A stretch of 64,000 nucleotides of DNA, taken from positions 103,088 to 167,087 of the forward strand of contig NZ_BMQU01000012.1 in assembly GCF_014648275.1 (NCBI RefSeq), written 5' to 3'. The translations under genes and the position numbers were made by a program. This document shows, one piece after another, positions 6,375 to 26,644 of the stretch. The notes beneath the pieces were generated by a model that was given only the letters and a program-made list of their open reading frames with translations, was not told where the DNA came from and did no database searches. Numbering within the stretch: the stretch's first letter is position 1; each line of letters opens with the position of its first letter. The stretch comes from Pseudomonas laurentiana (lineage in GTDB: Bacteria; Pseudomonadota; Gammaproteobacteria; Pseudomonadales; Pseudomonadaceae).

Positions 6375-6533
6375 TATGTTTCTCGTGTTTTTGTCGATTA
6401 CTGGCGGCTTTACTTTGGCCCGTCATTCTACCATCACGGCGCATCAAAATCGCGACTTAGAGGGCAGCGGTACTCGTTGGGGCAACCACCTAAAAGCAAG
6501 CGGCGTAGGTCGAGGGGGGAGTGGCATGGGCTA

Positions 6534-6569
6534 GCTTTGAATGCGATCCACCGTACCCACATTCAAAGC
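6534..6569. repeat. 10-bp perfect inverted repeat upstream of IS66 tnpB
   Basis: GCTTTGAATG (6534-6543) and CATTCAAAGC (6560-6569) face each other across 16 bases. It lies between the start of the acyltransferase gene and the IS66 tnpB gene, where a left end of the IS66 element would be expected but is not recognisable. It may be an unrelated mobile-element end or an operator; nothing decides. Confidence 0.45.
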
Positions 6570-6620
6570 CACTTGTTGATGCCCGATGCTGTGCTCCGAT
6601 TTCTCAGGAGCCCATTCACC

Positions 6621-6980: not shown

Positions 6981-6998
6981 GTTAGTATAATCCATGGC

Positions 6999-10052: not shown

Positions 10053-10488
10053 GGACGAATCCTTTCTAGTGTGAAAGCATTGGGTAGATTTCGATTTTTG
10101 CTGGGAGTGAAGGTTACCAGAAAGTTCTTTTCAAGACGATGAGTTACCTCAGCATCGTTGTCTCCATGAACCTGTTCGCCGAGCGATTGTCGCTGTTGAC
10201 CAATTACTCCGGTTTTTTATCAGAACCGGATGGCATTCATGCTTGACGTGACTTTCCCCGTTGGATACTGGGCGAGCCTTATGCTAGCTAGCAGCCAGGG
10301 CTCATTGATTGTCGACCTGTCCCAGATACAAAAAATATCACGAATAAGCGTCCTAGTATGCCAGTCGAAGCGTTAAACTGTAAGGAAAGGTGGATCCGCC
10401 AGTACCCTTGTTACCGAGCTTGCAGCTGCACCCCAAAAGGCTAAATGGACGTTATTTGACCAGTTGTTCTGGTCTCTCAGGAGAAACA
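10053..10488. other. Intergenic region between divergent acyltransferase and GT2 genes
   Basis: 436 bases without a convincing gene. They must contain the promoters of both flanking genes. The only clear structure is a hairpin at 10208-10230 (TCCGGTT, 9-base loop, AACCGGA). No JUMPStart/ops element was found. Confidence 0.5.
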
Positions 10489-11472
10489 ATGTCGAGTGAG
10501 TTTCTAGCAACGAAGAAGACTACTGAGGTGGGGCGTCTCCCCTCCAAGAAAGTGTCGGCCTCTGTGGCTGTATTGATGTGTACACGAAACGGTGAAAAGT
10601 TTCTGGTCGAGCAACTTGAGTCTATTGAGCGTCAATCTCATAGAAATTTTCATGTTTTCATTTCCGATGACGGCTCAACGGACTCGACCTTAGCCATCCT
10701 TCAGCAGCAACAGCACTCATGGGGGGGGCGAGTTTCTTTGTTTAATGGGCCAGGAAAAGGGTTTGCCACTAATTTCTTGTCGCTGAGTTGCAACCCCGAG
10801 GTGGATGCCGATTTTTTTGCTTGGTGTGACCAGGATGATATCTGGCACGAGGACAAGTTGAAAAAAGCGACGGAATGGTTGTCGGGGGTTCCCGCGGATA
10901 TACCAGCTTTATATTGTTCGCGCACGGAGTTGGTAAGTGAGGTGGGACAGCCAATCGGCTTTTCGACCTTGTTTCGCCGAAAGCCCGATTTTTGTAATGC
11001 GCTCGTTCAGAATATCGCTGGTGGTAACACCATGGTATTCAATCGGGAGTTGATGATGTTGCTGCGCGAGGCAGGTGACTCAGTGCCCGCCGTATCCCAT
11101 GACTGGTGGGCTTATCTATTAGTTAGTGGTTGTGGCGGGAAAATTTTTTATGATTCAAATCCTTCAATTCTGTATCGACAACACGATTCAAATTGTGTGG
11201 GTGCAAACACAGGAGTTCGTGAAAGCGGCAAGAGAGTCAAGCAACTGTTGCACGGTCGCTATAGACAATGGATGGACCAGAACATCGTAGCCTTGCAGGC
11301 AATCAGTCATCGCTTTACACCTGAAAACAGAAATACCCTGGAACTGTTTAGCCGTGCTCGAAAAGGTAACCTGTTTAAGCGCCTTGCGGGAATGCGACGT
11401 GCCGGCGTCTATCGTCAAACCTACCTTGGCAATATCGGTCTTTTGGCAGCAATATTCATTCGGCGCGTCTAA
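10489..11472 (+). CDS. Glycosyltransferase family 2, rhamnosyltransferase-like
   Basis: A 327-residue GT-A protein. It contains VAVLMCTRNGEKFLVEQLESI at about residues 26-46, SDDGSTDST (nucleotide-binding Asp pair) near 60, WCDQDDIWH near 108 (the DxD region) and HDWWAYLLVSGCGG near 205, followed by the YRQHDSN block typical of bacterial rhamnosyltransferase-like GT2 enzymes. The ATG at 10489 is preceded by CAGGAG at the right distance and is preferred over the upstream in-frame ATG at 10390. The enzyme probably adds a sugar to the lipid-linked O-antigen unit on the cytoplasmic side; donor and linkage cannot be read from sequence. It is transcribed toward the RTX gene. Base composition is lower in GC than the core genes. 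Confidence 0.9.
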   Translation: MSSEFLATKKTTEVGRLPSKKVSASVAVLMCTRNGEKFLVEQLESIERQSHRNFHVFISDDGSTDSTLAILQQQQHSWGGRVSLFNGPGKGFATNFLSLSCNPEVDADFFAWCDQDDIWHEDKLKKATEWLSGVPADIPALYCSRTELVSEVGQPIGFSTLFRRKPDFCNALVQNIAGGNTMVFNRELMMLLREAGDSVPAVSHDWWAYLLVSGCGGKIFYDSNPSILYRQHDSNCVGANTGVRESGKRVKQLLHGRYRQWMDQNIVALQAISHRFTPENRNTLELFSRARKGNLFKRLAGMRRAGVYRQTYLGNIGLLAAIFIRRV

Positions 11473-11532: not shown

Positions 11533-13224
11533 TCAGAAGATAAAGTCTAGAGGAGTGAGTTGATCTTTTCTAATGTTTTTCAGGGTGATGGTACTGGTCT
11601 CATTCAGCCGAATGACGGCATCGTCGCCCTGTTGAGCAGTCAGTGCCATCACTTCTACAAACGAGGCGAGGTTGCCCGTCAGATCGATGACATCTTTCTC
11701 TCCGGCGTAACCGGAGAAATCCATGATGATGTCGTTGCCGCTGTCCTGTTTTTCCCAGAAGATGAAAGAATCGGCGCCCGGCCCGCCCCACAACACATCG
11801 TCGCCCAGGCCTCCATCCAGTACGTCGTCGCCTTCATTTCCGAAAAGTTGGTCATTCCCTGCGTCACCGAAGAGAAAATCATCACCTGCTCGCCCCTCGA
11901 TATGGTCATCACCTTCGGCACCTGCTAGCAAATTGCTGTCGTCGTTACCCAACAGAATGTCGTTATAAGGCGTGCCCTGTGCACCTTGAATATTCTTGAG
12001 ATGGTCATTGCCGCAGCATCCGAAGGCCCGGCCGTCATCAAGGTCTACCTTAACTGGTCTGGGTTTCTGTCCCGCAGTGTGCGGATGCCAATAGTCCACC
12101 ATCGTCGCTTGATCCTTGGCGATCAGCTTGTCGTCGCCCGGTGTGAGATTGGGGACGGGAAGAAAATTATGGTATCGAAGACGGTGCAATGGAGAAAGGT
12201 AGGTGGCGTATTCCGGTTCGACCGTTTCAATCTGGCCAGGCGTGGAGCGGCCGTGTTTGAGTATCAACGTCTGCTGGTCGGAGGTGTTATTGCCCAGGTC
12301 TTTCACTCGTGTTTTGTCATGGTTGTCGGGTAAGTAGTAAGGAATTAATGACTGCGTGACATCGTTGTCGCGTATGGCGCCAGCTTCCGAGCGTTTGAAT
12401 GTGATGCCATGTATGAAGTTCTTGACAGTATTACCCTTCACCAACACATCGGTGGCTCCATCACCGCCGACCCATATACCGTAGGTTGAGCGTGAGCGCG
12501 TGTGCCAGGCAGGCATATCAGAAGTGAGTTCCAGAGATCGATTGGAAATGCGGTTGCCTCGAACGATACTGCCGTCACCGAAGTGAGTCAGGCAAATGCC
12601 GACGCCTTCGCCTATGTCCTTGACGCCGCTACCCCGGACCTCCTCGATAGTGTTGTCACTGACCTGTATGTCTTTGCCATAGACTTCGATGCCCATGGCG
12701 TAGGCGTTGGCGATCCCAGTGCTCCCGCCTATGTCAGTAATCGTATTGTTGCGTATGACTGAATTATTACCTTCGACCCTGATGCCCCTGAAGGTGCTGT
12801 CATGAATAGTCAGTCGCTCGACCAGATGCTTGCCTTCACCCATGTCGTCAGAGGTTTTTGCGCGGTCGAAATAACCGGAGATGTAAACGGCATACTGGAA
12901 ACCCGAGAGGGTTCCATTCCTGATTTCGAGTGCTTTATGCCCAAAGGCAGAAATGCCATAGAAGGCATTATCGGGTGTGCGAGGACCGCTCAGTGTGTGT
13001 CCGCCAAGATCCAGTACGACGTTGTCCGCAGCAATCTGGATGCCATTGCCCTGGGTTTCGAGGGATGCAGATAGTGTGTAGTGCCCAGGTACGCTGATGG
13101 TATAGGGCAGCGAGCTAATCTGCTGCACAGTTGCAGGGTTGGCAAGGGTGGTGTGCCCCCACAAACTGAATACAAGCAGGATCGTTGTTCGCAAGGAGGT
13201 AAGGTTGGCGAAGATACGGTTCAT
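11533..13224 (-). CDS. Exported right-handed beta-helix protein with C-terminal RTX repeats
   Basis: A 563-residue protein. Residues 1-28 form a Sec-type signal peptide (hydrophobic core TTILLVFSLWG, cleavage expected after TLA). Residues about 50-300 form a right-handed parallel beta-helix of the pectate-lyase/C5-epimerase type, with NVVLDLGGHTLSG, NSVIRNNTI, IQVSDNTIEEV, SIVRGNRIS and VLVKGNTVKNF coils. Residues about 417-481 hold five or six calcium-binding nonapeptides (GNDxxL, GAEGDDHIEG, GDAGNDQLFG, GNEGDDVLDG). The protein ends in LDFIF, like type I secretion substrates. The gene overlaps its upstream neighbour by ATGA and is last in the Wzm/Wzt operon. A polysaccharide epimerase, lyase or surface-glycan protein is possible; no catalytic residues can be assigned. 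Confidence 0.85.
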   Translation of the reverse strand: MNRIFANLTSLRTTILLVFSLWGHTTLANPATVQQISSLPYTISVPGHYTLSASLETQGNGIQIAADNVVLDLGGHTLSGPRTPDNAFYGISAFGHKALEIRNGTLSGFQYAVYISGYFDRAKTSDDMGEGKHLVERLTIHDSTFRGIRVEGNNSVIRNNTITDIGGSTGIANAYAMGIEVYGKDIQVSDNTIEEVRGSGVKDIGEGVGICLTHFGDGSIVRGNRISNRSLELTSDMPAWHTRSRSTYGIWVGGDGATDVLVKGNTVKNFIHGITFKRSEAGAIRDNDVTQSLIPYYLPDNHDKTRVKDLGNNTSDQQTLILKHGRSTPGQIETVEPEYATYLSPLHRLRYHNFLPVPNLTPGDDKLIAKDQATMVDYWHPHTAGQKPRPVKVDLDDGRAFGCCGNDHLKNIQGAQGTPYNDILLGNDDSNLLAGAEGDDHIEGRAGDDFLFGDAGNDQLFGNEGDDVLDGGLGDDVLWGGPGADSFIFWEKQDSGNDIIMDFSGYAGEKDVIDLTGNLASFVEVMALTAQQGDDAVIRLNETSTITLKNIRKDQLTPLDFIF

Positions 13225-14417
13225 TGGTTTTGATCTTGTCGAAGAGCAGGCTTGTTAAGTCGGGTCGAGTTTCGCATTATCCGGTCGTTGGCGCTGTTCA
13301 TGTATTGGCGTTGAGCTGGAACAAACAGGCTTCCTATGTGCTGCCGTGTCAGGGCATGGATCACCGAGCTGTCGGACGACAGGGCTAGCAATGCTGAGGC
13401 CGATGAAACCGAAATCACCTTGCATTGTTGGTTGAGTACCGTAAATAGCTCGATGGGCAGATGTTCCAGATGCTCTGGAAATGGTTGTACCCTGTATTCG
13501 CCAAGCGCGTCGAGTAACTGTGTGACAAAGGCAGAGTCTGTACCGGCGTGTTTTTTTATATAAAGCAATTCGCGGGTCGTCACGTGCTCTTTGCAAATGT
13601 CGATGTACAAAGCGAGCTCATTTTTCTGGCTGGTAAATTTACTTCGGGTGAAGTTGCTGAGTATCAATAAGGCCGTCGTGCTATACCCCGCTTGGATTAC
13701 ATGCTGTTCGAATTCATCGATTTCTGGAAACGTTTTCTTTAGGGAATGCAGGGTGTGCATTACCGCATCGGCGGGAATCACCACCGGTTCAGGGTAGGGA
13801 ATCCCTTCGACCTGATCATCGAAGTTGATCGCGATCAGTGCCTTTTCCGCCGTTAGCCATGTTTTCACATTGCGCAATCGGCTTCGCCAGAACAACTCCT
13901 TAAAGCCACGTAGGCTTAGGGGCGCGCGCGGCCGCTCAGGTGGGTAGGAGGGGTAGAGAAATCCCGGCGCATCACCGTAGCAGATTATTCGCCCGGGCCT
14001 GAGGGCTTGCATGAAGGCCTGGGACGTATGGTCTGAGCTCGCATCGTGAGCGTAATAGAATGTGGAACAGCCACCGATTTCACTCAACCGCTGCTCAAGC
14101 CATCGAGCACGCTTCATCAGATTCCGATAGGGCGATAGGGGGCCGTCGCGCTCTTGCCGGGAAAATATCAATGTTGAAATGAAAGGATATTGGTGGAGTG
14201 CGCTAGCAAAGAACTGGCGTGTTCGCGAATCCGGCTCGTGGTCGCTTGCCTCGTAAGACCATAGCACCAAGACCGCCGGAGTATCGGTCGGTATGGCATT
14301 GATTACACGGTCATGTTCCAGTGCACACAGTGCGTGCAATAGTTGGTGAGGAAACGACACCATCATGACCGCACACGCTGTCTGCGCGACAGCGGTGTCA
14401 GGGTTCGAATGGCTCAT
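13221..14417 (-). CDS. Polysialyltransferase-like glycosyltransferase (putative nonulosonate transferase)
   Basis: A 398-residue protein when started at ATG 14417, which overlaps the wzt stop by ATGA; the frame is open to 14486, but the overlap start fits the operon pattern. It resembles the GT52/polysialyltransferase group: FYYAHDASSDHTSQAF, RIICYGDAPGFLY (place of the family's D/E-D/E-G motif), LYIKKHAGTD (place of the HP motif) and VISVSSASALLAL (the SS motif). Such enzymes use CMP-sialic acid or related CMP-nonulosonates. With a CMP-legionaminate pathway next door, it may transfer that sugar; this is inference. The canonical HP reads HA here, which weakens a strict family assignment. Confidence 0.65.
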   Translation of the reverse strand: MSHSNPDTAVAQTACAVMMVSFPHQLLHALCALEHDRVINAIPTDTPAVLVLWSYEASDHEPDSRTRQFFASALHQYPFISTLIFSRQERDGPLSPYRNLMKRARWLEQRLSEIGGCSTFYYAHDASSDHTSQAFMQALRPGRIICYGDAPGFLYPSYPPERPRAPLSLRGFKELFWRSRLRNVKTWLTAEKALIAINFDDQVEGIPYPEPVVIPADAVMHTLHSLKKTFPEIDEFEQHVIQAGYSTTALLILSNFTRSKFTSQKNELALYIDICKEHVTTRELLYIKKHAGTDSAFVTQLLDALGEYRVQPFPEHLEHLPIELFTVLNQQCKVISVSSASALLALSSDSSVIHALTRQHIGSLFVPAQRQYMNSANDRIMRNSTRLNKPALRQDQNQ

Positions 14418-15808
14418 GGTTTCTCGCGCAGGGGCGACATCTGGATGTCCCAAGGCAGATGAGGGCGAATCAGGCAGCCGGGCCAAGTGTTCGGCCAGTT
14501 ACCTCGCACACCCGCAGCTTGACTATCGTCTGCCACGCTGAACTTCAGCACTGAAGACTGGATGATTCGATGTTCGGCTTCCGAGCCGGGCCAAAGCTCC
14601 ACGTCGATACGGAAGTCCCCCACGTTCAGAAGTGGAGATTGGATCGTGCAGCGTTCAGTATATTGGCCTATCGCGCGGACACCCGGTGGGGCCTGATGAT
14701 TGTCCATGCTGAACAGCAGGTAGTGGCCCGCGAGATCCTTGAGGTGGATGTGGGCGTTGATAGGCCATTTTTCCTTGAGGATGGTGAAGGTTATCTCAAC
14801 GGTGCAACTGGCTTTGATATCGAATTGAGCGCTCGGCTTTCCATCCAAGTCGACGATCCTGACGGAATCCAGGCGCACGCAATCGTCGAACAGCGGCGCT
14901 TCGGACTCTGCCCACACTACCTCGGAGGTCATCGCTATTCCCGACCTGATATAGGAACGGGTGATGTCTGAAACGGTTGGTGCCGAGTCCCTTGACGCTT
15001 GGAGGTGTGTCTGTTCGATCCTGCTATCGTTGATGATTCTGCCGTGGGCCATGTGTACAGCACGATTGCAGATCCGGTTGACAGCATCCATATCGTGGCT
15101 GACGAACAGGAGCGTGCGACCTTGGTCCGCGACCTGCAGCATCTTGTCTGTGCAACGTCGCTGAAAGGCCGCGTCACCAACCGCCAGCACTTCGTCGACG
15201 ATCAGGATTTCGGATTCTAGGTGCGCCGCCACCGAGAACGCCAAGCGAACATACATGCCGGATGAATAGCGTTTGACGGGCGTATCGATAAGTTCTCCGA
15301 GCTCGGAGAACTCGATGATCTCCTCGAGTCGCCGGCTGATTTCCTTGGGCTTCATGCCCATGATCGAGCCGTTCAGGAAGATGTTTTCACGGCCGGTAAG
15401 ATCACCATGGAACCCTGTGCCGATCTCTAGCAAACTGATCAGGCGACCGCGAAAGCGGAACTTGCCAGACGAAGGTGAGGTAATGCGTGACAAAATCTTG
15501 AGCAGCGTACTTTTTCCGCAGCCATTTGGGCCGATGATACCGACACGGTCACCCTCTCCGATTTCCAGATTGATATCTCTGAGCGACCAGAAATGGTTAA
15601 GCGGTGCATCCTCTGTCTGCAGCCCGTCAAGGATGGTATGGGTACCAGGTGCTTCATAGGCAATCTTCACTGCAGGTTTGCGCAGGGGATTGACCACCCG
15701 GCCAAAGGCACGGCGCAATTGCTGATTGACCATTTCGGCGGCGGTCACATTCGATTTGCCAATTCGATACAGCTTGGAAATTTCTTCGCAACGAATGGCC
15801 CAGGTCAT
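14414..15808 (-). CDS. wzt: O-antigen ABC transporter ATP-binding protein Wzt with C-terminal domain
   Basis: A 464-residue protein. The ABC domain occupies residues about 1-290: GPNGCGKST (Walker A, 93-101), YSSGMYVRLAFS (signature), ILIVDEVLAVGD (Walker B) and FVSHD (switch His). Residues about 320-464 form a Wzt_C-like beta-sandwich, which in known systems recognises the terminal modification of the finished polysaccharide before export. ATG 15808 (MTWAIRCEEISK) overlaps the wzm stop by ATGA; the longer frame to 15916 lies inside wzm and is not used. With Wzm it exports the completed chain across the inner membrane. The extra domain suggests a capped chain, so one of the two neighbouring GT-B enzymes may add the cap. 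Confidence 0.93.
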   Translation of the reverse strand: MTWAIRCEEISKLYRIGKSNVTAAEMVNQQLRRAFGRVVNPLRKPAVKIAYEAPGTHTILDGLQTEDAPLNHFWSLRDINLEIGEGDRVGIIGPNGCGKSTLLKILSRITSPSSGKFRFRGRLISLLEIGTGFHGDLTGRENIFLNGSIMGMKPKEISRRLEEIIEFSELGELIDTPVKRYSSGMYVRLAFSVAAHLESEILIVDEVLAVGDAAFQRRCTDKMLQVADQGRTLLFVSHDMDAVNRICNRAVHMAHGRIINDSRIEQTHLQASRDSAPTVSDITRSYIRSGIAMTSEVVWAESEAPLFDDCVRLDSVRIVDLDGKPSAQFDIKASCTVEITFTILKEKWPINAHIHLKDLAGHYLLFSMDNHQAPPGVRAIGQYTERCTIQSPLLNVGDFRIDVELWPGSEAEHRIIQSSVLKFSVADDSQAAGVRGNWPNTWPGCLIRPHLPWDIQMSPLREKP

Positions 15809-16665
15809 AACGTATCCACGACATTTTTTTCGAAATGCTGGAATATCAATACCCCAACAGTGAAGCACACCACTGCGATCGCAATCAGTGTCAACAACGT
15901 GCTTTGCGCCGGCCACTCTCCGTGCATGGCGTCACGGTAGCTGGTGATGACTAGGGAAAGCGGGTTAACCGAGTACCAAGGCTTGGCCCAGGACGGTACT
16001 GCCGAGACCGGATAAATGGCCGGTGTGGAGTAATAGAACAGCTGTAGTGCCAGGGGGACCAGATGCTTGATGTCGCGATACTTGGCGTTGAGCGGTGCCA
16101 GCATGAGGCCTACGCCCAGTCCGATCATCAGCGTGCAGCCGAGCAGTAGCGGCATCAGCAGCAGTAGTTGCAGCGTCCACACGCCGTAGGCGATGGCGAA
16201 AGGGGTGATCAGAAAAGCATACGCAATCAGGAAGTCGACTGCTGCACCTACGGCATATGAACCGCCAATCAGCAGCCTGGGAAAGTAGACCTTGCTGATC
16301 AGTCCCGCGTTGCCCTCGATCATTTGTACTGAAGGATTCAACACGTTCATGAACGCGTACCAGGGGATCACCGCGACCAGGTAGAACATAATGGTAGGCA
16401 ATCCATCGGTCGGTACTTTCACCATTAGCCCGAAGACGATGACGAATACACCAACGGTAATCAGCGGAGTTAGAATGACCCAGCCCAGGCCGAAGATAGT
16501 CTGTGTATAACGGCCCTTCAGGTCGCGTTTGCAGAAAACCCACAGCAGTAGTCGAAAGTCCCAGAGGTTTCTAAGCAGCCCCAGAAGGTCGAATTGGCTG
16601 GTGTTGCTGACGACCGTTTCCCTGAGTGGGGGACGGCTGTTTCCTTTGCTACTCATGGGCGTCAC
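15805..16665 (-). CDS. wzm: O-antigen ABC transporter permease Wzm
   Basis: A 286-residue ABC-2 type permease with six predicted membrane helices. It shows the N-terminal cytoplasmic KRDLKGRYTQTIFGLGWVILTPL segment, IPWYAFMNVL, LNAKYRDIKHLVPLALQLFYYSTPAIYP and the end WYSVNPLSLVITSYRD, all typical of polysaccharide permeases. It forms the channel with two Wzt subunits. It overlaps the upstream glycosyltransferase-like gene (stop 16662-16664) and wzt, each by ATGA. No Wzx/Wzy pair is visible in the window, so the glycan of this operon is probably made by the ABC-dependent route. Confidence 0.93.
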   Translation of the reverse strand: MTPMSSKGNSRPPLRETVVSNTSQFDLLGLLRNLWDFRLLLWVFCKRDLKGRYTQTIFGLGWVILTPLITVGVFVIVFGLMVKVPTDGLPTIMFYLVAVIPWYAFMNVLNPSVQMIEGNAGLISKVYFPRLLIGGSYAVGAAVDFLIAYAFLITPFAIAYGVWTLQLLLLMPLLLGCTLMIGLGVGLMLAPLNAKYRDIKHLVPLALQLFYYSTPAIYPVSAVPSWAKPWYSVNPLSLVITSYRDAMHGEWPAQSTLLTLIAIAVVCFTVGVLIFQHFEKNVVDTL

Positions 16666-18212
16666 GTTCTGCTTGAGGTGGTGAACTGGGCTTGAACGCT
16701 GGTCAGTTCGGCGATCAGGTCAATTATGCGCGCCATGGAGCGCCCGTCCTGCATACCCCATTCGCTGGCACTCTCAATTTGACCGGCGCGGGCCCGTTCA
16801 TATGCCTCCTTGTCATCGGTCAGGCGCTCGAGCGTGGACTGGAAGACGCTGTATCGATTGGTCGTCACCAGGCCCTTGGCCCCGTCGAAATCGGTATAGC
16901 CATAGTCATAGCAGTCGTAGTTGATTGCCGGGATGCCACATGCAGTCGCCCAGCGCAAGGTAGAGGAGACGCAGGCGACAAAGAGGTCGCAGGCCGGTAC
17001 CAGATCGAGGGTATCGATATCGGTAACGCGATGATGCAGGCGATAAGGTCGCAGTACCTCGGTCAGCAGTTCGGGGTCGGTTACCGGGTGAGGGCGGATG
17101 ACCACGTTGAAGTCAGTGAATCGGCTGACAGTGGCTAGTGCTTTGGCCCAACCCTTGCATAGCGCCTTGTAGTCGGGAAACTCCATGGGGATATTGCGCG
17201 AACCGTACTGGTCGGTGGGCCAGGCGCACACCAGCAGTGGCTTCTCGGGGTCTAGCCTCAGGCGCCGGAATACACGGTTTCTCGCCTGCTCGTCATGCCG
17301 TGCGGCATGCAGGATGTCGTCATAGGCAGCCCCCGTCACGCGCAATTGACTCTCGGGAAACTGCATCCGCTGATAGTAACGTTCCATTTCGGGGCTTTCG
17401 ACACCGATGCAGGTAACGCGACTGCTATTGGGGATCCATGGGTGCTCGGGGGCACACCCGAATGCTTCGAGCAAAATGATCCTGTCCCCAGGCATCCGTA
17501 ACAGTTTTTTCGAAGCGTAATAGTTGACCCAGTGTGGGAATAGTGACGCGGTGATCTTGTTGATCAGATTGTGTTCGGCATCATACATCGGCTTGTCGAA
17601 CAGGCTTTCCACCATCTCCTTGGCTGTGCCCACAGCGAAAGGAATGATGAGGGTCGGCACCTGGTCGTTGTTGCAAAGCTTGGTAAGCAAGGCGTTGACC
17701 GAGCCAGGGAACTCCTGGCCAAAGACCACTAGAGAAGGGTTCACCTTCTTGTACACCTGGCGTGCGTAATAGAATGGTCGGAAGAATTTTGCGTTTCTTT
17801 TCTTCTGCTGTTTTTCCACGGCACTGGCCGTCGCATCGGTGAGCCTAAGCAGAGGACTCAGCAAAGCCGACAGCATAAGGACGCCCCATACGGACCATTT
17901 GCTTTTGTTGCTGCGCTGCTCTCGCAAAGAGTTTGGAACGTAGCCGTTCTCCAGGCCGTCGGCTATCTCCTCGTACTTTTTCGACAGTGGCGAGTGCTTC
18001 AATGATTTACCTGGAAAGTAGTCACTGAAGTCGTTGAGGCGACAGGTCGCCCGATCCTGCTTGAGGTTTATGTAGCCTGGCTGCGCAAAGAGAAAGCTGA
18101 TGCCGTAACCAGCCTGTTTCGCTGCCACGGCAACCCGACGGAGCTCTACGAACTCACCTGCCTCATTGATGACAAAAAGAATGTTCTTGTCAGGAAGAGA
18201 ACTGCACTTCAT
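16662..18212 (-). CDS. Putative GT-B glycosyltransferase with HP and SS motifs
   Basis: A 516-residue protein that I do not place in a named family with certainty. The N-terminus (NILFVINEAGEFVELRRVA) looks like the start of a Rossmann domain. The C-terminal half has VVIRPHPVTDPELL (HP motif near residue 385) and FVACVSSTLRWATACGIPAIN (SS motif near 425), the arrangement found in capsule and sialic-acid/KDO-type GT-B transferases and in related 2-epimerase folds. The middle holds a basic, helical segment (residues about 100-150). It is the first gene of the five-gene ATGA-linked operon that includes Wzm and Wzt. A role in adding a CMP-activated sugar, as starter or cap of the chain, is inferred from context. 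Confidence 0.6.
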   Translation of the reverse strand: MKCSSLPDKNILFVINEAGEFVELRRVAVAAKQAGYGISFLFAQPGYINLKQDRATCRLNDFSDYFPGKSLKHSPLSKKYEEIADGLENGYVPNSLREQRSNKSKWSVWGVLMLSALLSPLLRLTDATASAVEKQQKKRNAKFFRPFYYARQVYKKVNPSLVVFGQEFPGSVNALLTKLCNNDQVPTLIIPFAVGTAKEMVESLFDKPMYDAEHNLINKITASLFPHWVNYYASKKLLRMPGDRIILLEAFGCAPEHPWIPNSSRVTCIGVESPEMERYYQRMQFPESQLRVTGAAYDDILHAARHDEQARNRVFRRLRLDPEKPLLVCAWPTDQYGSRNIPMEFPDYKALCKGWAKALATVSRFTDFNVVIRPHPVTDPELLTEVLRPYRLHHRVTDIDTLDLVPACDLFVACVSSTLRWATACGIPAINYDCYDYGYTDFDGAKGLVTTNRYSVFQSTLERLTDDKEAYERARAGQIESASEWGMQDGRSMARIIDLIAELTSVQAQFTTSSRT

Positions 18213-18323: not shown

Positions 18324-18812
18324 TCACCGTGTGTCGTTGAGTGCATTTAAAGCGCGCAATCGGGCGCTCTCGGTTGCCTTCGCAGCTTCTGCGACAGGCC
18401 CCGACCCAGGCGTAAACTTTGCAATTTCCTTTGTCAGTTGCGCGTAGGCATTCAGCTTGACCATCGATGATTCGGGGGATGCGGAAAGTTCGCCCAGCGA
18501 TTTTTCCGAGGCCAAGCGAGCGGCAGCTGCAACGGACTCGGGTGCTTTCGTGGCGAGTTTGGCTGCAGCTTCCGGTGAGGACACTGCCAAGTTCAGTGCA
18601 TCATCCTCTAGTGTCCCCGCCTCGTCACTGATCTCTGCGGTCAGGGTGGGGGCAGGAGGCACGGGAGCTACAGCTGGAGTAGCAGGGGTGGAGGCGCTTA
18701 GCGAGGCAGGGCGGCCAATTATCTCGTTCTTGACTTTCGGGGAATTATCACAGCCGGTGAGGAGTAGGCACATTGAGCTCAGCACAATGAGAGACATAGG
18801 AAGCTTTTTCAC
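18324..18812 (-). CDS. Small alanine-rich lipoprotein of unknown function
   Basis: About 162 residues, with a lipoprotein signal peptide ending in the lipobox LLTGC followed by DNSPK. After that comes a Pro/Ala/Thr-rich linker (about residues 35-60) and then an Ala/Glu/Ser-rich, probably helical region. I choose the GTG at 18812 because AAAGG lies about nine bases upstream; a TTG at 18821 and an ATG at 18788 are alternatives. The Asp after Cys favours retention in the inner membrane by the general +2 rule, but Pseudomonas sorting is less strict. It lies between ptmE-like and the export operon on the same strand. I do not recognise a family. Confidence 0.7.
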   Translation of the reverse strand: MKKLPMSLIVLSSMCLLLTGCDNSPKVKNEIIGRPASLSASTPATPAVAPVPPAPTLTAEISDEAGTLEDDALNLAVSSPEAAAKLATKAPESVAAAARLASEKSLGELSASPESSMVKLNAYAQLTKEIAKFTPGSGPVAEAAKATESARLRALNALNDTR

Positions 18813-18879
18813 GGATATCAACCTTTCAATGCGAGGCCTGCAAAGTATCCCCGATATGGGGGCGCCAAGTTATTTGCAG

Positions 18880-19926
18880 TCATCTTTGCGAGGGCCATTC
18901 GTGTTGGGCGCGCTCAAACTCTTCGATCTGGCCGATATCCAGCCAATACTCCCGTAGCGGGAATGCAGCCGTGCTCTTGCGGGCCTTGATCAGGTCCTCG
19001 AACAGGGTCGGCATGTCGTAGAAAGTCTCGGGCGGAATCAGGTCAAGCGCAGCGGGCGAGATCGCATAAATGCCGGCGTTGACAAAGAATCGGTGGACCG
19101 GCTTCTCATCGATGGACTCGATGGCTGCACCGTCCATTCGTACCACGCCATAGGGGACCTGGAAGTCGTATTCGCGGACGGTCATGGTCGCCAAGGAATC
19201 ATGCTCGTCATGGAATTGCACCAAGTTGTCGAACCGAGCGTGTGTCAGCAGGTCACCGTTCATGACTAGGATCGGATCTTGTGGGCGTTCTGGTAGCAGC
19301 GAAAGCGCACCCGCGGTGCCCAGGCGCTTGTGCTCCTGCAGGTAGCAAATGTTCACGCCCCATTTGCTGCCATCGCCGAAATGGTCTCGCACCACGGACG
19401 CGAGGTAGTTCACCGAAAGGAAGAAGTTGCGAAAACCCTGCTCGATGAAGCTTTCCAGTATGCATTCCAAGATTGGCTTGCCTGCGATCATCAGCATGGG
19501 TTTGGGGCAGTTTTCGGTCAGCGGACGCAGACGCTCGCCCAGCCCGCCGGCCATGAGTACGACCCAGTTCGGGCGCTCCAGAATGCCGGCAATGCCGTCC
19601 AGCGTCACCAGGCCGACAACCTTGCGTTGGTCATCGATCAGGGGTAAATGGTGCAGCACGTTGCGCCGCATCAGCTTGAGCTGTTCGGCGGGCAGGGAAG
19701 TAGTGTGCGCGGTGATCGGCGAGGCATTCATGACTTCGGATGCGGGGCCGTCCAGCGAAAAACCACGGAGTATGGCCCGGCGGACATCGCCGTCGCTCAG
19801 CGTGCCGACGAGCTGTTGATCCTTGTCTAGCATCAGCGCCAATTGCAGGCCGCTGGCGTCGATACAGCGAATGGCGTCGCGCAGCGTTGCGTCCGTGCCA
19901 ACTACGGTGTCTCTCCAGTCCTTCAC
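18880..19926 (-). CDS. ptmE: CBS-domain sugar-phosphate nucleotidyltransferase (PtmE/LegX type)
   Basis: A 348-residue protein. Two CBS domains fill residues about 5-115 (LVGTLSDGDVRRAIL and KVVGLVTLDGI), followed by a nucleotidyltransferase domain from about 120: VVLMAGGLGERLRPLTENCPKP (nucleotide-binding GGxGxRLxPLT and the KP lysine), VMNGDLLT (metal-binding Asp) and the closing EYWLDIGQ. In Campylobacter, PtmE of this architecture makes GDP-glucosamine for legionaminic acid. Divergent placement next to LegB/C/G/I/F genes makes that the best guess. The start is GTG (19924-19926) with AGGAAA upstream. Related CBS-nucleotidyltransferases serve other pathways, so substrate and nucleotide are inferred. 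Confidence 0.82.
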   Translation of the reverse strand: MKDWRDTVVGTDATLRDAIRCIDASGLQLALMLDKDQQLVGTLSDGDVRRAILRGFSLDGPASEVMNASPITAHTTSLPAEQLKLMRRNVLHHLPLIDDQRKVVGLVTLDGIAGILERPNWVVLMAGGLGERLRPLTENCPKPMLMIAGKPILECILESFIEQGFRNFFLSVNYLASVVRDHFGDGSKWGVNICYLQEHKRLGTAGALSLLPERPQDPILVMNGDLLTHARFDNLVQFHDEHDSLATMTVREYDFQVPYGVVRMDGAAIESIDEKPVHRFFVNAGIYAISPAALDLIPPETFYDMPTLFEDLIKARKSTAAFPLREYWLDIGQIEEFERAQHEWPSQR

Positions 19927-20538: not shown

Positions 20539-21519
20539 ATGACTACAGTTTTAGTGACCGGCGCCGATGGCTTCATTGGTTCGCATCTGACAGAATTGCT
20601 TGTGCGTGAAGGCTACAAGGTCAAGGCGCTTTCTCAATACAATTCGTTTAACTACTGGGGGTGGCTGGAGGACGTCGACTGCCTTTCTCGTATCGAAGTG
20701 CTCAACGGTGATGTCCGTGATCCGCACTACTGCAAGCACATTACCAAAGACGTGGATATCGTTTTCCACTTGGCCGCGCTGATTGCCATTCCTTACTCTT
20801 ACGTTGCACCTGACAGCTATGTCGACACCAACGTCAAAGGTACCTTGAATATTTGCCAGGCGGCCATGGAGAATGGTGTCAAGCGGGTCATCCATACTTC
20901 TACCAGTGAAGTTTACGGTACCGCGAAGTATGTTCCGATCGACGAAAAACATCCGTTGCAGGCTCAGTCGCCCTACAGTGCTTCGAAAATTGGTGCCGAT
21001 GCGATGGCGATGAGTTTCTACAACGCTTTCGACCTGCCGCTGACGATTGCCCGGCCGTTCAATACCTACGGGCCTCGCCAGTCTGCGCGTGCAGTGATCC
21101 CTACTATCATCAGCCAGATCGCTTCGGGTCAGAAGCAGATCAAGCTGGGCGATGTGACGCCTACCCGTGACTTCAACTACGTCGCCGACACCTGCCGTGG
21201 CTTCCTCGAACTGGCCCGCTGTGAGCAGGCGGTTGGCGAAGTCGTGAATATCGGCTCCAACTTCGAGATCTCGGTAGGGGACACCCTCAACCTGATCCGC
21301 GAACTGATGGGTAGCGACGTCGAGTTCCTCACCGACGAGCAGCGGATGCGTCCGGAGAAGTCCGAGGTCTTCCGCTTGTGGTGTGACAACAGCAAGATCA
21401 ATGGCCTGACCGGCTTCAAGCCCGAGTACTCGATCCGCCAGGGCTTGGAGAAGACGGTTGAGTGGTTCACCCAGCCACAGAATCTCGCCAAGTACAAAGC
21501 CAATATCTATAACGTCTGA
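20539..21519 (+). CDS. legB: NAD-dependent nucleotide-sugar 4,6-dehydratase, LegB type
   Basis: A 326-residue extended SDR enzyme with VTGADGFIGSHL at the N-terminus (GxxGxxG NAD motif), HTSTSEVYG with the catalytic Thr/Ser and Glu, and YSASKIGAD with the Tyr-x-x-x-Lys pair near residue 147. The stretch RPFNTYGPRQSARAVIP is highly typical of LegB/dehydratases of GDP- or UDP-GlcNAc in nonulosonate loci. It would form the 4-keto-6-deoxy sugar used by the aminotransferase encoded next (8 bases downstream). It is the first gene of the plus-strand leg operon. A GDP-linked substrate is expected if the adjacent PtmE-type enzyme supplies it. Confidence 0.88.
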   Translation: MTTVLVTGADGFIGSHLTELLVREGYKVKALSQYNSFNYWGWLEDVDCLSRIEVLNGDVRDPHYCKHITKDVDIVFHLAALIAIPYSYVAPDSYVDTNVKGTLNICQAAMENGVKRVIHTSTSEVYGTAKYVPIDEKHPLQAQSPYSASKIGADAMAMSFYNAFDLPLTIARPFNTYGPRQSARAVIPTIISQIASGQKQIKLGDVTPTRDFNYVADTCRGFLELARCEQAVGEVVNIGSNFEISVGDTLNLIRELMGSDVEFLTDEQRMRPEKSEVFRLWCDNSKINGLTGFKPEYSIRQGLEKTVEWFTQPQNLAKYKANIYNV

Positions 21520-21527
21520 GGTCTGGT

Positions 21528-22679
21528 ATGTACGACTCGCTTGTCAGGTTTGTGCGCGATCAGTACCGCACTCAGGAGTTTATTCCACTGCATGCTCCGG
21601 TATTTGCGGGTCATGAACAGCGGTATGTTGGCGAAACCATCGCCTCCACTTTCGTCTCCAGTGTGGGGGCCTTCGTCGACCGCTTCGAGCACGACATGCA
21701 GGTCTTCACTGGCAGCCCGCGCGCCGTGGCGACCGTCAATGGCACGGCGGCCTTGCACATTGCCCTGTTGCTGGCCGGAGTGAGGGCTGGCGACTTGGTG
21801 ATCACCCAGTCGCTGACCTTCGTGGCGACGTGTAATGCCATCGCTTACTGTGGCGCCGAGCCGGTCTTCGTGGACGTCGATCGCGAGACGCTGGGGCTTT
21901 CACCCTCGGCGCTGGAGCGCTGGCTCGATAGCGAAGCGATGATGGGCGAGGATGGCGTATGTCGGTTGCGTAAAGATGGCCGGGTGCTGCGCGCCTGCCT
22001 ACCCATGCATACCTTCGGCCATCCGGTGGCGCTCAAGGAACTGCTGGTAGTCTGTGAGCGCTGGCAGTTGGCGTTGGTTGAGGACGCCGCCGAATCCCTG
22101 GGCAGTACCTATCAGGGGCAGCACACCGGCACTTTCGGGCTGATCGGGACGTTGAGCTTCAATGGCAACAAGATCATCACCACGGGAGGCGGTGGTATGG
22201 TGCTGACTAACGACGCGCTGGGTACAAGGGCCAAGCATCTGACGACAACCGCCAAGCAGCCTCACGCCTATGAATATGTGCATGACGAAGTGGGCTACAA
22301 CTATCGGCTGCCTAACCTGAATGCCGCGCTTGGCTGTGCCCAGCTCGAGCAGTTGGACGGTTTCCTGGCGGCAAAGCGTCAATTGGCCATGAACTACAAA
22401 GAGGCACTGCAGAGCAGTGACCTGACATTTGTCACCGAGCCGGCAGATTGCCGTTCGAACTACTGGCTGAATGCTGTCATCTGCCAGGATCTCGCTCAGC
22501 GGGATGCGTTGCTCAAAGCTACCAACGAGCGAGGCGTGATGACGCGCCCCATCTGGGCGCTGATGAACCGTCTGCCAGCCTACCAACACTGTCTGAGGGG
22601 GGACCTGAGCAACGCCGAGTGGCTGGAAGCGCGGGTTGTCAACCTGCCGAGCAGCGTGCCGCCGCAGGAGGTCAAATGA
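21528..22679 (+). CDS. legC: PLP-dependent sugar aminotransferase, LegC type
   Basis: A 383-residue DegT/DnrJ/EryC1/StrS aminotransferase. TVNGTAALHIALLLAGV is the conserved phosphate-binding start, VEDAAESLGSTYQG the Asp region contacting PLP, and SFNGNKIITTGGGGM carries the Schiff-base lysine. It probably transfers an amino group to C4 of the 4-keto sugar made by LegB. The stop overlaps the start of the next gene (ATGA). LegC members are about 380 residues long, so the gene is complete. Confidence 0.88.
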   Translation: MYDSLVRFVRDQYRTQEFIPLHAPVFAGHEQRYVGETIASTFVSSVGAFVDRFEHDMQVFTGSPRAVATVNGTAALHIALLLAGVRAGDLVITQSLTFVATCNAIAYCGAEPVFVDVDRETLGLSPSALERWLDSEAMMGEDGVCRLRKDGRVLRACLPMHTFGHPVALKELLVVCERWQLALVEDAAESLGSTYQGQHTGTFGLIGTLSFNGNKIITTGGGGMVLTNDALGTRAKHLTTTAKQPHAYEYVHDEVGYNYRLPNLNAALGCAQLEQLDGFLAAKRQLAMNYKEALQSSDLTFVTEPADCRSNYWLNAVICQDLAQRDALLKATNERGVMTRPIWALMNRLPAYQHCLRGDLSNAEWLEARVVNLPSSVPPQEVK

Positions 22680-23830
22680 GCCGTCGCATTGCCGTCTTTA
22701 CCGGTACCCGGGCTGAGTACGGCCTGCTTTACTGGCTGATGAAGGAAATCCAGAAGAGCGAGCAGTTGGACTTGCAGCTCATCGTCAGTTGCATGCACTT
22801 GTCACCAGAGTTCGGTTACACCTGGCAGCAAATTGTCGAGGACGGCTTCGAGATCGACGCCAAGGTAGAGATGTTGCTTTCGTCCAATACCGATGTTGGT
22901 ACTGTTAAGTCCATGGGGTTGGGGGTGTTGGGCTTCGCTGATGCGCTGGATCGTCTGCGCCCGGATCTTCTGGTGGTGCTGGGTGATCGTTTTGAGGCGT
23001 TGAGTATCTGCCAGGCGGCCCTGATCATGCGCATCCCTATCGTGCATGTGCATGGTGGGGAGTTGACTGAAGGCGCGTACGACGATGCCATCCGGCATGC
23101 AATCACCAAGATGGCGTACCTGCATTTCGTCGCCGCGCAACCCTATCGCAAGCGTGTTATCCAGATGGGGGAGTCGCCTGAACGGGTGTTCAACGTGGGT
23201 GCCGTTGGGCTCGATCATCTCAAGCGCACGCCCGATATGCCGCTTGAGGCGTTGCGCGACAGCCTCGGCTTCGATTTGTCGGCGCCGTTCCTGCTGGTGA
23301 CCTACCACCCTGTGACGATGCTCGAAGAGGATCCGGAAAAAAGCTTCGAGGCGCTTCTGCAGGCCTTGGAGGCGTTTCCTGCTTATCGCGTGGTCGTCAC
23401 CTATCCGAACGCGGATAACGGCGGCCGGGCGATCATTCCGATGATCGAGCAGTTCGCGGTACAGAATCCCGAGCGTGTGCTGGCGATACCTTCTCTTGGG
23501 TTCAAGCGCTACCTGAGCGTTGTGAAGCGTGCTGCCGCCGTCGTTGGCAATTCGTCCAGCGGTATCATCGAAGTCCCTTCGTTCGGTGTCCCCACTGTCA
23601 ATATCGGCAGCCGCCAAGCAGGGCGCCTGAGCGCAGACTCCGTGTTGCACTGCGCGCCGGACAGGGTAGCGATCGAGTCCGCTATCGGCTTGGCGCTGAG
23701 CGAGCCTTTTGCCCAGGCAAGCAGGCAGACGATCAACCCCTATGGGCAGGGCGATGCCGCCAGCGCAATCGTGCGTATCCTTGAAACCTGTGACACTTCG
23801 GGTCACAAGTCATTTCATGATCTGAGTTGA
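22676..23830 (+). CDS. legG: Hydrolysing UDP/GDP-sugar 2-epimerase, LegG/NeuC type
   Basis: A 384-residue protein beginning at ATG 22676, with GGAGG seven to eight bases upstream and overlapping the legC stop; the longer frame from 22448 is not used. It shows the family start FTGTRAEYGLLYWLM, VVLGDRFEAL, VHVHGGELTEGAYDDAIRHAITKM and the late VVGNSSSGIIEVPSFGVPTVNIG block. Enzymes with GTRAEYG hydrolyse the nucleotide and invert C2, releasing the free 6-deoxy-mannosamine derivative. That product is the substrate of the synthase encoded four bases downstream. Confidence 0.9.
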   Translation: MSRRIAVFTGTRAEYGLLYWLMKEIQKSEQLDLQLIVSCMHLSPEFGYTWQQIVEDGFEIDAKVEMLLSSNTDVGTVKSMGLGVLGFADALDRLRPDLLVVLGDRFEALSICQAALIMRIPIVHVHGGELTEGAYDDAIRHAITKMAYLHFVAAQPYRKRVIQMGESPERVFNVGAVGLDHLKRTPDMPLEALRDSLGFDLSAPFLLVTYHPVTMLEEDPEKSFEALLQALEAFPAYRVVVTYPNADNGGRAIIPMIEQFAVQNPERVLAIPSLGFKRYLSVVKRAAAVVGNSSSGIIEVPSFGVPTVNIGSRQAGRLSADSVLHCAPDRVAIESAIGLALSEPFAQASRQTINPYGQGDAASAIVRILETCDTSGHKSFHDLS

Positions 23831-23833
23831 CGA

Positions 23834-24919
23834 ATGAAATCTGTAAGCAGAGATTCCGTGTACATCATCGCTGAGGCCGGTGTTAACCATAACGGTCAGC
23901 GTGAACTGGCTTTCGAACTGATCAATCAGGCGGCACGAGCGGGCGCAGATGCGGTGAAGTTTCAGACGTTCAACGCCAGCAAGCTTGCGTCCGTCACGGC
24001 ACCCAAGGCGCTCTACCAGAAAACGACCACTGATGCCGAGGAAAGCCAGCAGGCCATGCTTCGGAAGCTGGAATTGCCTCGCGACTGGCATGCTGACCTT
24101 CAGGCTCATGCAAAAGACAAGGGGATCGAGTTCATCAGCACGGCCTTTGATAATGACAGCCTCGATTTCTTGGGCACACTAGACATCCCGTTTTTCAAGG
24201 TGCCGTCCGGTGAGTTGGTCAATGGCCCGTTGTTGTGGCAATTCGCCCGAACTGGCAAGCCGCTGATTGTCTCTACTGGTATGGCGACCTTGAGCGAGGT
24301 TGAGCAGGGCCTGGCCATAATCACGCATGCATTGGTCAATGATCAGGAGCCTGCGGATATGGATGATGTGTGGCGTTGCTGGAGCGACGGGCAGGCGCGA
24401 GCCCGGCTTCAGGGACATGTCACGCTGCTCCATTGCACTTCCCAATACCCGACGCCGCTTGCAGAGGTGAACTTGCGGGCGATGGATACCCTTCAACAGG
24501 CTTTCGGCCTGGAGGTTGGCTATTCGGACCATACCCAGGGGGTGCTTATTCCGGTAGCTGCCGTGGCGCGAGGCGCGCGTGTCATCGAAAAGCATTTCAC
24601 CCTCGATCGGTCAATGCCTGGCCCTGACCATAAAGCCTCGCTGGAACCTGCCGAGCTTGCCGACATGATTGCGCAAATCCGCGGGTTGGAGCAGGCACTG
24701 GGCCAGCCGGCAAAATTGCCGCAGCCGAGTGAGTGGGATACGCGCAAGGCAGCGCGGCAGCAGGTAATGGTCGTTCGTGACATTTCGGCGGGTGAATGCT
24801 TCTCGCGTGACGACCTGTCGACCGCGCGCTGTGGCGGCGGCCTCCCTGCTACGGCGCTGTGGGGGCTGGTCGGTGCAGTCGCGACAAGGTCCTATCGCGC
24901 GGGAGAGGCGGTAGAGTAA
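23834..24919 (+). CDS. legI: Nonulosonic acid synthase, LegI/NeuB type
   Basis: A 361-residue protein. The NeuB TIM-barrel domain runs over about 280 residues: IIAEAGVNHNGQRELA, ADAVKFQTF, STAFDNDSLDFL, KVPSGEL, STGMATLSE, HCTSQYPTP and EVGYSDHTQG, then KHFTLDR. The C-terminal SAF (antifreeze-like) domain follows from about residue 300 (VMVVRDISAGE). Known reaction: condensation of phosphoenolpyruvate with a 2,4-diamino-6-deoxymannose derivative to a nine-carbon acid, metal-dependent. In this context legionaminate or a close analogue is the expected product. A gap of 411 bases follows before the amidotransferase gene. Confidence 0.9.
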   Translation: MKSVSRDSVYIIAEAGVNHNGQRELAFELINQAARAGADAVKFQTFNASKLASVTAPKALYQKTTTDAEESQQAMLRKLELPRDWHADLQAHAKDKGIEFISTAFDNDSLDFLGTLDIPFFKVPSGELVNGPLLWQFARTGKPLIVSTGMATLSEVEQGLAIITHALVNDQEPADMDDVWRCWSDGQARARLQGHVTLLHCTSQYPTPLAEVNLRAMDTLQQAFGLEVGYSDHTQGVLIPVAAVARGARVIEKHFTLDRSMPGPDHKASLEPAELADMIAQIRGLEQALGQPAKLPQPSEWDTRKAARQQVMVVRDISAGECFSRDDLSTARCGGGLPATALWGLVGAVATRSYRAGEAVE

Positions 24920-25330
24920 AGCCCATGCTACCTGGCGATATGGGTACCTGATGTTTCGCCGCAACCGATGCCAAATTACCAGGGCCCGATTTGATCACGT
25001 CTGTATACTTCGCCACCGTGGTCATGTCGGTCCAACGGTGGCGCGATCAAGGCGTGTGGCGGGGCGAGTGCGACATGTATCGGCGATTTTCCCGCTCCCC
25101 GGGCCCGTTGAAGTTTTTTTATTTCCTATTTCGACATGGAGTGTCGACAGCAATGACAGTAAGGCTGCATGAGTGGCAGAACCCGCTTGGGGTGATTCAC
25201 AAGGAAGGAATCAACTGTGTCGGCTTTAGTGATGTTCGAGTCGTAGCAAGTAGGCGTCATTACAACGACCTGCATTTGGCTCGCAATAACTACCCCGTTT
25301 GATTGTTGTATTTGCATTTGGAGACTGGTT
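24920..25330. other. 411-bp gap inside the leg cluster
   Basis: An unusual gap in an otherwise tightly packed operon. Short open frames (for example 24991-25302) show no recognisable family, and no LegH-type acetyltransferase is readable in any frame. It may contain an internal promoter for the amidotransferase genes or be the scar of a lost gene. Confidence 0.5.
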
Positions 25331-26644
25331 TTGAAAATTTCCCCTAGTTCGACGATAGATCTTTCCAAGTTCACCGCCCCAAAGGCTGAGCGGGAAGTTT
25401 TCTATGGGCTGCCGCGAGACGTAAAATTCTGCAAGATCTGCAACATGTCTAACCAGCAGCCCATGTCGAGCAACGAGTACGCGCACAGCAACAGCTCCAC
25501 CAAGTCGACCATGAGCTTTGACGAACATGGCGTGTGCCACGCTTGTAATTTCAACAAGCTCAAGGAGGACGGCGAAATCGACTGGGATGAGCGCGAGCGT
25601 GAACTGCTCGAGCTTTGCAATCAGTACCGCAAAAACGACGGCAGCTATGACTGCATTGTCGGCGGCAGCGGTGGTAAAGACAGCGCGATGCAGTCGCACC
25701 TGCTGAAGTATAAATACGGCATGAACCCGTTGACCGTGACCTGGTCGCCGCACCTGTACACCGACATTGGCTGGAAGAACTTCCAGAACTGGCTGCATGT
25801 TGGCGGCTTCGACAACTTCCTGTATACCCCGAACGGCAAGATCCACCGCTTGCTGACCCGCAATGCGACGATCAACCTGCTGCATCCCTTCCAGCCGTTC
25901 ATTCTGGGGCAGAAGACTTTCGTCGCCAAAATGGCCGCTAAGCTGAATATTCCGCTGATCTTCTACGGGGAAATGCCGGGCGAGTACGGCGAGAAGATTT
26001 CGCACAAGACCTCCAGCTACGCTGCTACCAATGAAGTTGCAGAGAGCGAAGGTTTCTCGCTGGATTATCTGGGTGGCAAGGACATTCGCGATGTCTTCCT
26101 GGGCGGCAAGCCGATCGGCGAGTACCTAGACGAAGGTGTGCCGATGGTCGATTTGGCCAGCTACCTACCGATGGCGCCGGACATCCTGGAGCGCAAGGGT
26201 ATTGAGTTCAAGTATCTGGGCTACTACAAGAAGTGGGTGCCACAGGAAGCCTACTACTACGCCGTCGAACACACCGGCTTCGAAGCCAATCCGGTGCGTA
26301 CCGAAGGCACGTATTCCAAGTACAACAGCCTTGATGACAAGGTCGACGGGTTCTTCTACTTCACCCGCTGGATCAAGTTCGGCGTGGGCCGCTCGATGAT
26401 GGATTCCGCCCAGGAAATCCGTAATCACCATATCGACAAGGAAGAAGCTATCGCGCTGATGCAGCGTTATGAGGGTGAGTACCCTTCACGCTACGAGAAA
26501 GAGTTTCTTGACTACATCAGCATGACCCGTGAAGAGTTCCTGGCCACCTGCGACCGTTTCCGTTCGCCGCACCTGTGGCACGTGGTCGATGGGGAGTGGA
26601 AGCTGCGCTACACCCCATGGAATCCACAGGGCAACGCTGAATGA
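25331..26644 (+). CDS. wbpG: N-acetyl sugar amidotransferase (WbpG/PseA/PtmG type)
   Basis: A 437-residue protein with TTG start and GGAGA upstream. N-terminal cysteines CKICN and CHACN (about residues 34-37 and 72-75) look like a zinc site. The ATP-pyrophosphatase P-loop GGSGGKDSAMQ lies near residue 110, followed by EMPGEYGEK and the C-terminal DKEEAIALMQRYEGEYPSRY region typical of this family. WbpG in Pseudomonas aeruginosa and PseA/PtmG in Campylobacter convert an N-acetyl group to acetamidino. WbpG uses ammonia from HisH/HisF-like partners, and both partners are encoded immediately downstream. An acetamidino nonulosonate is therefore the expected product. Confidence 0.88.
   Translation: MKISPSSTIDLSKFTAPKAEREVFYGLPRDVKFCKICNMSNQQPMSSNEYAHSNSSTKSTMSFDEHGVCHACNFNKLKEDGEIDWDERERELLELCNQYRKNDGSYDCIVGGSGGKDSAMQSHLLKYKYGMNPLTVTWSPHLYTDIGWKNFQNWLHVGGFDNFLYTPNGKIHRLLTRNATINLLHPFQPFILGQKTFVAKMAAKLNIPLIFYGEMPGEYGEKISHKTSSYAATNEVAESEGFSLDYLGGKDIRDVFLGGKPIGEYLDEGVPMVDLASYLPMAPDILERKGIEFKYLGYYKKWVPQEAYYYAVEHTGFEANPVRTEGTYSKYNSLDDKVDGFFYFTRWIKFGVGRSMMDSAQEIRNHHIDKEEAIALMQRYEGEYPSRYEKEFLDYISMTREEFLATCDRFRSPHLWHVVDGEWKLRYTPWNPQGNAE

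Follow-up and report, generated by a model that had tools for sequence, protein, structure and literature searches.

In the window (the whole 64,000-nucleotide stretch of DNA analysed here), a gene at the end of a Wzm/Wzt polysaccharide-export operon encodes a protein that joins a Sec-like N-terminus, a right-handed beta-helix and an RTX tail. Our preferred reading, which we put forward tentatively from sequence comparisons, is that this protein is exported by Sec and may bind, and most likely hydrolyse (trim), the legionaminic-type polymer of its own operon, either in the periplasm or at the cell surface.

Results

Architecture of the beta-helix/RTX protein

The gene runs on the minus strand from its ATG at 13224 to its stop codon at 11533-11535. 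The regions of its product and the neighbouring genes are listed in Table 1. The Sec signal peptide of the original prediction was recovered, by eye and by hydropathy and thus heuristically, in both the window protein and its Pseudomonas soli orthologue; a basic n-region is followed by a TTILLVFSLW core and a TLA/NPA site (by eye). The beta-helix coils that had been noted correspond to a Pfam match to PF13229 (Beta_helix, E 8.1e-17), and the RTX part to a match to PF00353 (HemolysinCabind, E 7.2e-18). GGxGxDxUx nonapeptides, the hallmark of RTX exoproteins, are present. The motif GxxGxDx[LIVF] occurs seven times, namely six times contiguously at residues 435-488 and once at residue 402; across 2000 shuffles it averaged 0.19 occurrences and never exceeded 3. 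A stricter pattern gives a count of five. The C-terminus reads PLDFIF, as the predicted LDFIF end requires. In the genome of this strain, PF00353 is found in the window gene only; on contig C7, a 1137-aa open frame has a weak match to the RTX part at 234344-234586 (33%, E 8.7e-6).

Two vicinal cysteines, residues 403-404 (about 12013-12018, minus strand), stand where the RTX domain begins. The pair is common to the P. soli orthologue, in which these are the only two cysteines. Vicinal cysteines are unusual in a type I substrate.

Table 1. Coordinates of the protein regions and of the surrounding genes.
Feature	Position	Strand	Basis or remark
GT2 glycosyltransferase, convergent, conserved neighbour	10390..11472	+	Pfam; P. 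soli comparison
Beta-helix/RTX protein, 563 aa	11533..13224	-	ORF and domain searches; P. soli orthologue 54.6% identical
C-terminal flank, end PLDFIF, type I substrate-like	11536..11760	-	NCBIfam matches below cut-off, reaching residues 561-563
Six contiguous RTX nonapeptides, residues 435-488	11761..11922	-	PF00353; motif positions
Linker (85 residues), residues about 316-400	12025..12279	-	no family match
Right-handed beta-helix, residues about 30-315	12280..13137	-	PF13229; relatives
Sec-like signal, residues about 1-29	13138..13224	-	by eye and hydropathy
ATGA start/stop overlap, beta-helix/RTX start and GT421 stop	13221..13224	-	kept in P. soli
GT421, 421-aa putative glycosyltransferase, weakly polysialyltransferase-like	13221..14486	-	true start may be internal
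Wzt, ATPase with Wzt_C-like end	14414..15916	-	ORF start probably too far upstream; ATG near 15808
Wzm, ABC2 permease (ABC2_membrane)	15805..16665	-	Pfam
GT516, 516-aa putative glycosyltransferase	16662..18212	-	weak TIGR04396 match, E 4.9e-7, below cut-off
Small lipoprotein	18324..18821	-	lipobox by eye
CBS and nucleotidyltransferase	18880..19926	-	Pfam
LegB, LegC, NeuC, NeuB, N-acetyl sugar amidotransferase, HisF-like, HisH-like, CMP-sugar synthase	20539..28737	+	NCBIfam

The operon and its surroundings

Upstream of the gene, on the same strand, we found Wzm (ABC2_membrane) and Wzt (ABC_tran; Wzt_C at 29.1 bits, cut-off 30.4), which confirms the polysaccharide ABC exporter that had been predicted. 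The ATGA overlap was also found as claimed, and from it we infer co-translation of the beta-helix/RTX gene with GT421. That this partner is a glycosyltransferase, as also claimed, stands on weak grounds: the window copy of GT421 has no match in Pfam or NCBIfam, and its P. soli orthologue matches PF07388, alpha-2,8-polysialyltransferase, below the cut-off (E 0.0081, 16.2 bits against 23.3). Profile comparison finds no relation between GT421 and GT516 (probability 0.5%), and no GT421 was found in plasmids. The small lipoprotein inside the operon has no Pfam or NCBIfam match, and the CBS-nucleotidyltransferase is presumably PtmE-like.

On the far side of GT2, an IS110-family transposase (2549-3904) separates a Polysacc_synt_2 gene from the cluster, and we take the ORFs at 6342-8525 to be pieces of an IS66 element. 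Two acyltransferase-3 genes, at 8976-10052 and 4488-6374 (both minus strand, the second fused to SGNH), are possible O-acetyltransferases that recall Legionella Lag-1; neither was matched in the P. soli stretch compared.

Sugar genes and the predicted polymer

The eight sugar genes are divergent from the exporter operon. Six exceed their NCBIfam cut-offs (LegB, LegC, NeuC, NeuB, the amidotransferase and HisH), and the HisF-like protein and the CMP-synthase (181.2 of 205.7 for PseF) score just below theirs. The gene set of an ABC-dependent legionaminic-type locus, i.e., LegB, LegC, NeuC, NeuB and a CMP-synthase with Wzm/Wzt, is thus present. By known pathways, this content points to a CMP-legionaminic-type sugar, which probably carries an acetamidino substitution. 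Between NeuB and the amidotransferase (24991-25302, plus strand) lies the remnant of a second CBS-nucleotidyltransferase, whose best match is 46% over about 50 residues and which is intact in P. soli (357 aa).

The serogroup 1 LPS locus of Legionella pneumophila is described as combining legionaminic genes, CMP-Leg5Am7Ac and Wzm/Wzt export of a legionaminic homopolymer; the available text of these sources does not mention a beta-helix/RTX gene (PMC3766260, PMC3694923). The polysialyltransferase match of GT421, taken with the sugar genes, recalls that O-chain and may serve as a lead. Genes resembling a conventional O-antigen cluster (by eye) lie upstream of the window and run into the Polysacc_synt_2 gene at 44-1486. 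This last gene is presumably wbpM. Because that cluster adjoins, the legionaminic-type polymer is probably a second polysaccharide, and the substrate of the beta-helix/RTX protein could be the other glycan.

Signal and secretion route

The best 10-residue hydropathy at the N-terminus is 2.01 in the window protein and 1.89 in the P. soli orthologue. For comparison, 30 other RTX loci were fetched, of which 23 were cut off at the 5' end and unusable. The 5' end was closed in the other seven, whose scores are 0.52-0.91 in six cases and 1.69 in the last; by this measure, which is a heuristic and not SignalP, a hydrophobic N-terminus is absent in six and doubtful in one. RTX proteins are normally exported in a single step by a type I secretion system (T1SS), with no periplasmic stage, and the secretion genes mostly share a locus with the RTX gene (PMC3034196). 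T1SS substrates are therefore expected to have no Sec signal, and the window protein has a Sec-like N-terminus.

A scan of the genes around the operon, between 44 and 32807, turned up no T1SS gene. In the genome, one of 21 HlyD-family matches is over the cut-off, on another contig. This sole strong T1SS adaptor (contig C30) stands beside ORFs that we take to be exporter-like and TolC-like, and near a gene start that we likewise take to be LapA-like. T1SS substrates carry an uncleaved secretion signal at the C-terminus. Their C-terminal parts match the C-terminal flank of the window protein, all below the cut-off, and its DFIF end resembles a type I signal, which counts against our preferred reading. 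On balance, Sec is the favoured route. Subsequent passage across the outer membrane by a type II secretion system is an unproven proposal, and no GspD match over the cut-off was found in the genome.

Conservation and rarity of the block

In P. soli LMG 27941, the whole block from GT2 to the CMP-synthase is retained in the same gene order, ATGA included. Identity between the two strains is 91% for LegB, 90% for Wzm, 75% for Wzt (86% in the ATPase part, 61% in the C-terminal part) and 70% for GT516, and it falls to 56% for GT2, 55% for the beta-helix/RTX protein, 46% for GT421 and 42% for the lipoprotein. Within the beta-helix/RTX protein, it amounts to 41% for residues 30-130, 61% for 131-290 and 69% for the RTX region, 398-500. 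GT421 and the beta-helix gene thus diverge much faster than the exporter, as would be expected if they followed differences in strain glycans; this pattern is only suggestive, because the lipoprotein and GT2 change equally fast. The P. soli block sits between O-antigen-like genes and rpsA/cmk, with flanks that differ from those of the window block, which lies behind the Polysacc_synt_2 gene and the IS elements. The block thus appears to have moved as a unit, beta-helix gene included. Conservation evidence of this kind is weak, as it comes from two orthologues.

The block is also rare. In a sample of 399 genomes of the genus Pseudomonas, the beta-helix part and GT516 each occur in two, and these are the same two genomes. 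The full-length query matched 2 of 194 genomes of relatives, i.e., the strain's own and one (G096) in which the match is to residues 397-535 only. The beta-helix part was found in 1 of 398 genomes sampled across the phylum (its own), and 1 of 174 relatives of P. soli gave a match (P. soli itself). Contigs of named genomes, searched with two peptide patterns of limited reach, yielded 36 fitting stretches, of which one, from P. soli, encodes a relative. Plasmids gave one weak match (29% over 37%), and phages and viral contigs gave none. A phage origin of the protein was considered and is without support, the one PHROGs tail-protein match (E 0.0077) being to residues 397-480.

Distant relatives

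Among 274 genomes sampled across the class, eight (including the strain's own) gave a match, and distant relatives occur at nine places in seven genomes. Six of these proteins, from four genomes, can be aligned with the greater part of the beta-helix (26-32% identity). Their length is 280-297 aa, none has an RTX part, and all but L026 begin, by eye, with a Sec-like sequence. For three more (L028-L030), the match is confined to part of the first 160 residues. On one contig of a relative from this class, three single-domain relatives (L025, L031, L032) are encoded in tandem with a shorter fourth ORF. As the simplest history, a Sec-exported beta-helix protein probably gained the linker and the RTX tail. 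The Sec signal would then belong to the beta-helix part, which eases the paradox of finding it with RTX repeats.

Fold matches and candidate residues

When the beta-helix part was used as a one- or two-sequence query, it matched no solved protein. An eight-row profile matched 13 solved sequences (E 3e-6 to 0.08), namely nine forms of one fucoidan lyase, a xylosidase, an exopolygalacturonase, NosD and an unnamed beta-helix repeat protein. PF05048 (NosD, a non-enzyme) matches seven of the eight family members. At the level of fold, these matches are compatible with both an enzyme and a non-enzyme. No catalytic motif was found in the protein; the PDB sequence matches include no chain named VexL or Vi depolymerase and, likewise, no named characterised VexL- or WceF-like member.

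The two orthologues share 50 invariant charged or aromatic residues. All six aligned relatives lack 33 of them, including five at columns where every relative has a gap. The beta-helix of the relatives carries mostly small polar residues. Arg149, Glu151, Glu180, Tyr182, Trp251, Lys277, Arg278 and Glu280 are identical in the orthologues and absent from all six relatives; His214, also identical in both, is present in one. These nine residues are no more than candidates. A conserved face was tried and rejected (21/25 versus 77/135 sites, Fisher p 0.008): the test was post hoc, and shifts of -6 to -1 give 21-23/25.

The original prediction had drawn an analogy with AlgE, which did not hold at the level of sequence. 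DPHD, the motif of the AlgE/AlgG mannuronan C5-epimerases (PMC4444821), is absent from the protein. The mannuronan-epimerase matches in the PDB fall only within residues 415-527, i.e., the RTX part, and the PDB matches, obtained by sequence, show no similarity of the beta-helix part to the epimerase A-module.

Discussion

The calcium-dependent, periplasmic or surface glycan enzyme originally proposed therefore survives in part: a calcium-binding, glycan-acting protein agrees with the domain make-up, with the conservation of the block and with the two-of-two co-occurrence, and the comparison with AlgE falls away. In the mechanism that we envisage, the mature protein would act on the exported nonulosonate polymer in the periplasm or at the cell surface, where its beta-helix would trim or bind the polymer, working like VexL and WceF. 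The RTX tail would fold only at high calcium, outside the cytoplasm, and could be a calcium-dependent stabilising or glycan-binding module, as the R-modules are in alginate enzymes. The architecture, the operon, its conservation, the co-occurrence and the relatives without RTX (mostly with Sec-like signals) are observed; we infer the action on the operon's polymer, hydrolysis as the activity, and the location. Beta-elimination needs uronate chemistry, which nonulosonic acids lack, so a lyase is less likely, an argument that fails if the polymer also contains uronic acids. A sharper version of the proposal, which we consider unlikely, is an 'endolegionaminidase' that depends on calcium. Its beta-helix would be the hydrolase and its RTX part would bind glycan, in an operon that would polymerise legionaminic polymer through the polysialyltransferase-like enzyme. 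Such an enzyme might set chain length or clear stalled chains from the periplasm, its type I-like tail serving as a calcium switch after Sec export.

A possible, though less likely, alternative to trimming is that the protein is a non-catalytic, calcium-dependent glycan binder or tether, holding the polymer at the surface or chaperoning it through the periplasm. Wzm/Wzt polymers are usually lipid-linked already, which argues against this, as do a number of charged and aromatic positions that only the two orthologues have in common. In its favour are the mostly small polar residues of the relatives, the NosD-like matches and the failure to find a catalytic motif; moreover, RTX modules such as the R-modules can bind polysaccharide (PMC4444821). 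That the protein is instead a passenger, a surface protein that travels on the same mobile block and does not act on its glycan, seems rather unlikely given that the ATGA and the operon-end position are kept at 46-55% identity, even if the block is rare, lies near IS elements, has apparently moved between sites and is seen in only two genomes.

Type I secretion of an enzyme, with the hydrophobic N-terminus unused and the DFIF tail directing export through the one strong T1SS of the genome, is improbable. The flank does look like those of type I substrates, and the genome has one adaptor over the cut-off; against this, the N-terminus is signal-like in both orthologues and in most aligned relatives, the T1SS is on another contig beside the LapA-like gene, and the vicinal cysteines are conserved. 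We regard an AlgE/AlgG-like epimerase of the polymer as highly improbable, since the missing DPHD motif, the restriction of epimerase matches to the RTX part, and sugar genes for a nonulosonate, not a uronate, all weigh against what the order of the domains suggests, a beta-helix followed by RTX being the layout of AlgE (PMC4444821).

If trimming or binding of the operon's polymer is correct, the protein would depolymerise or bind a sialic-acid-like bacterial polymer and be encoded together with that polymer's own exporter. It would then offer a tool for work on the structure and chain length of sialic-acid-like glycans. It would also allow a test of whether RTX domains can function when Sec, and not a type I system, has exported them.

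The earlier statement that linkage of such a protein to a polysaccharide ABC operon is undescribed was too strong, as VexL, from an ABC-dependent Vi system, and WceF, from an EPS operon, are precedents. Beta-helix proteins encoded with polysaccharide genes are thus already known; a literature search that covered few subscription journals found neither an RTX fusion in such a setting nor a gene of this sort in a legionaminic-type Wzm/Wzt cluster. The VexL gene belongs to the operon of its system, and VexL is not known to carry an RTX tail. ExsH of Sinorhizobium has RTX repeats and T1SS export; it belongs to a different catalytic family and is not known to contain a beta-helix. It is a succinoglycan glycanase described as cutting the exopolysaccharide of its own strain (PMC4916376). 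VexL is described as a periplasmic beta-helix depolymerase of the ABC-dependent Vi capsule system (PMC7949094, PMC9597891); the Achromobacter denitrificans enzyme is monomeric, and its substrate, like the one proposed here, is made by an ABC-dependent system, although it is a different polymer from that of the window operon. WceF, the stewartan hydrolase of Pantoea stewartii, combines a beta-helix with an export signal, is encoded in an EPS operon and cuts its own polymer; unlike the window protein, it has a Tat signal, is trimeric and tailspike-like, has 736 aa and belongs to a system with Wzc and Wzy-type control, and RTX is not mentioned in the available text (PMC7949094). The trait shared with both is an exported (here Sec-like) beta-helix protein encoded with polysaccharide genes. 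A beta-helix tailspike is reported to fragment a polymer that bears pseudaminic acid, using a retaining mechanism with two glutamates; here pseudaminic acid is a site of recognition and not the linkage for which cleavage was demonstrated (PMC5314372). Finally, the AlgE epimerases and the AlyA3 lyase of Azotobacter are described as acting on their own polysaccharide with a catalytic module followed by calcium-binding R-modules, which bind the polymer (PMC4444821). The window protein has the same beta-helix-then-RTX layout as AlgE, and differs from these enzymes in having no DPHD, no catalytic-module match, a Sec-like signal, and nonulosonate instead of uronate genes beside it.
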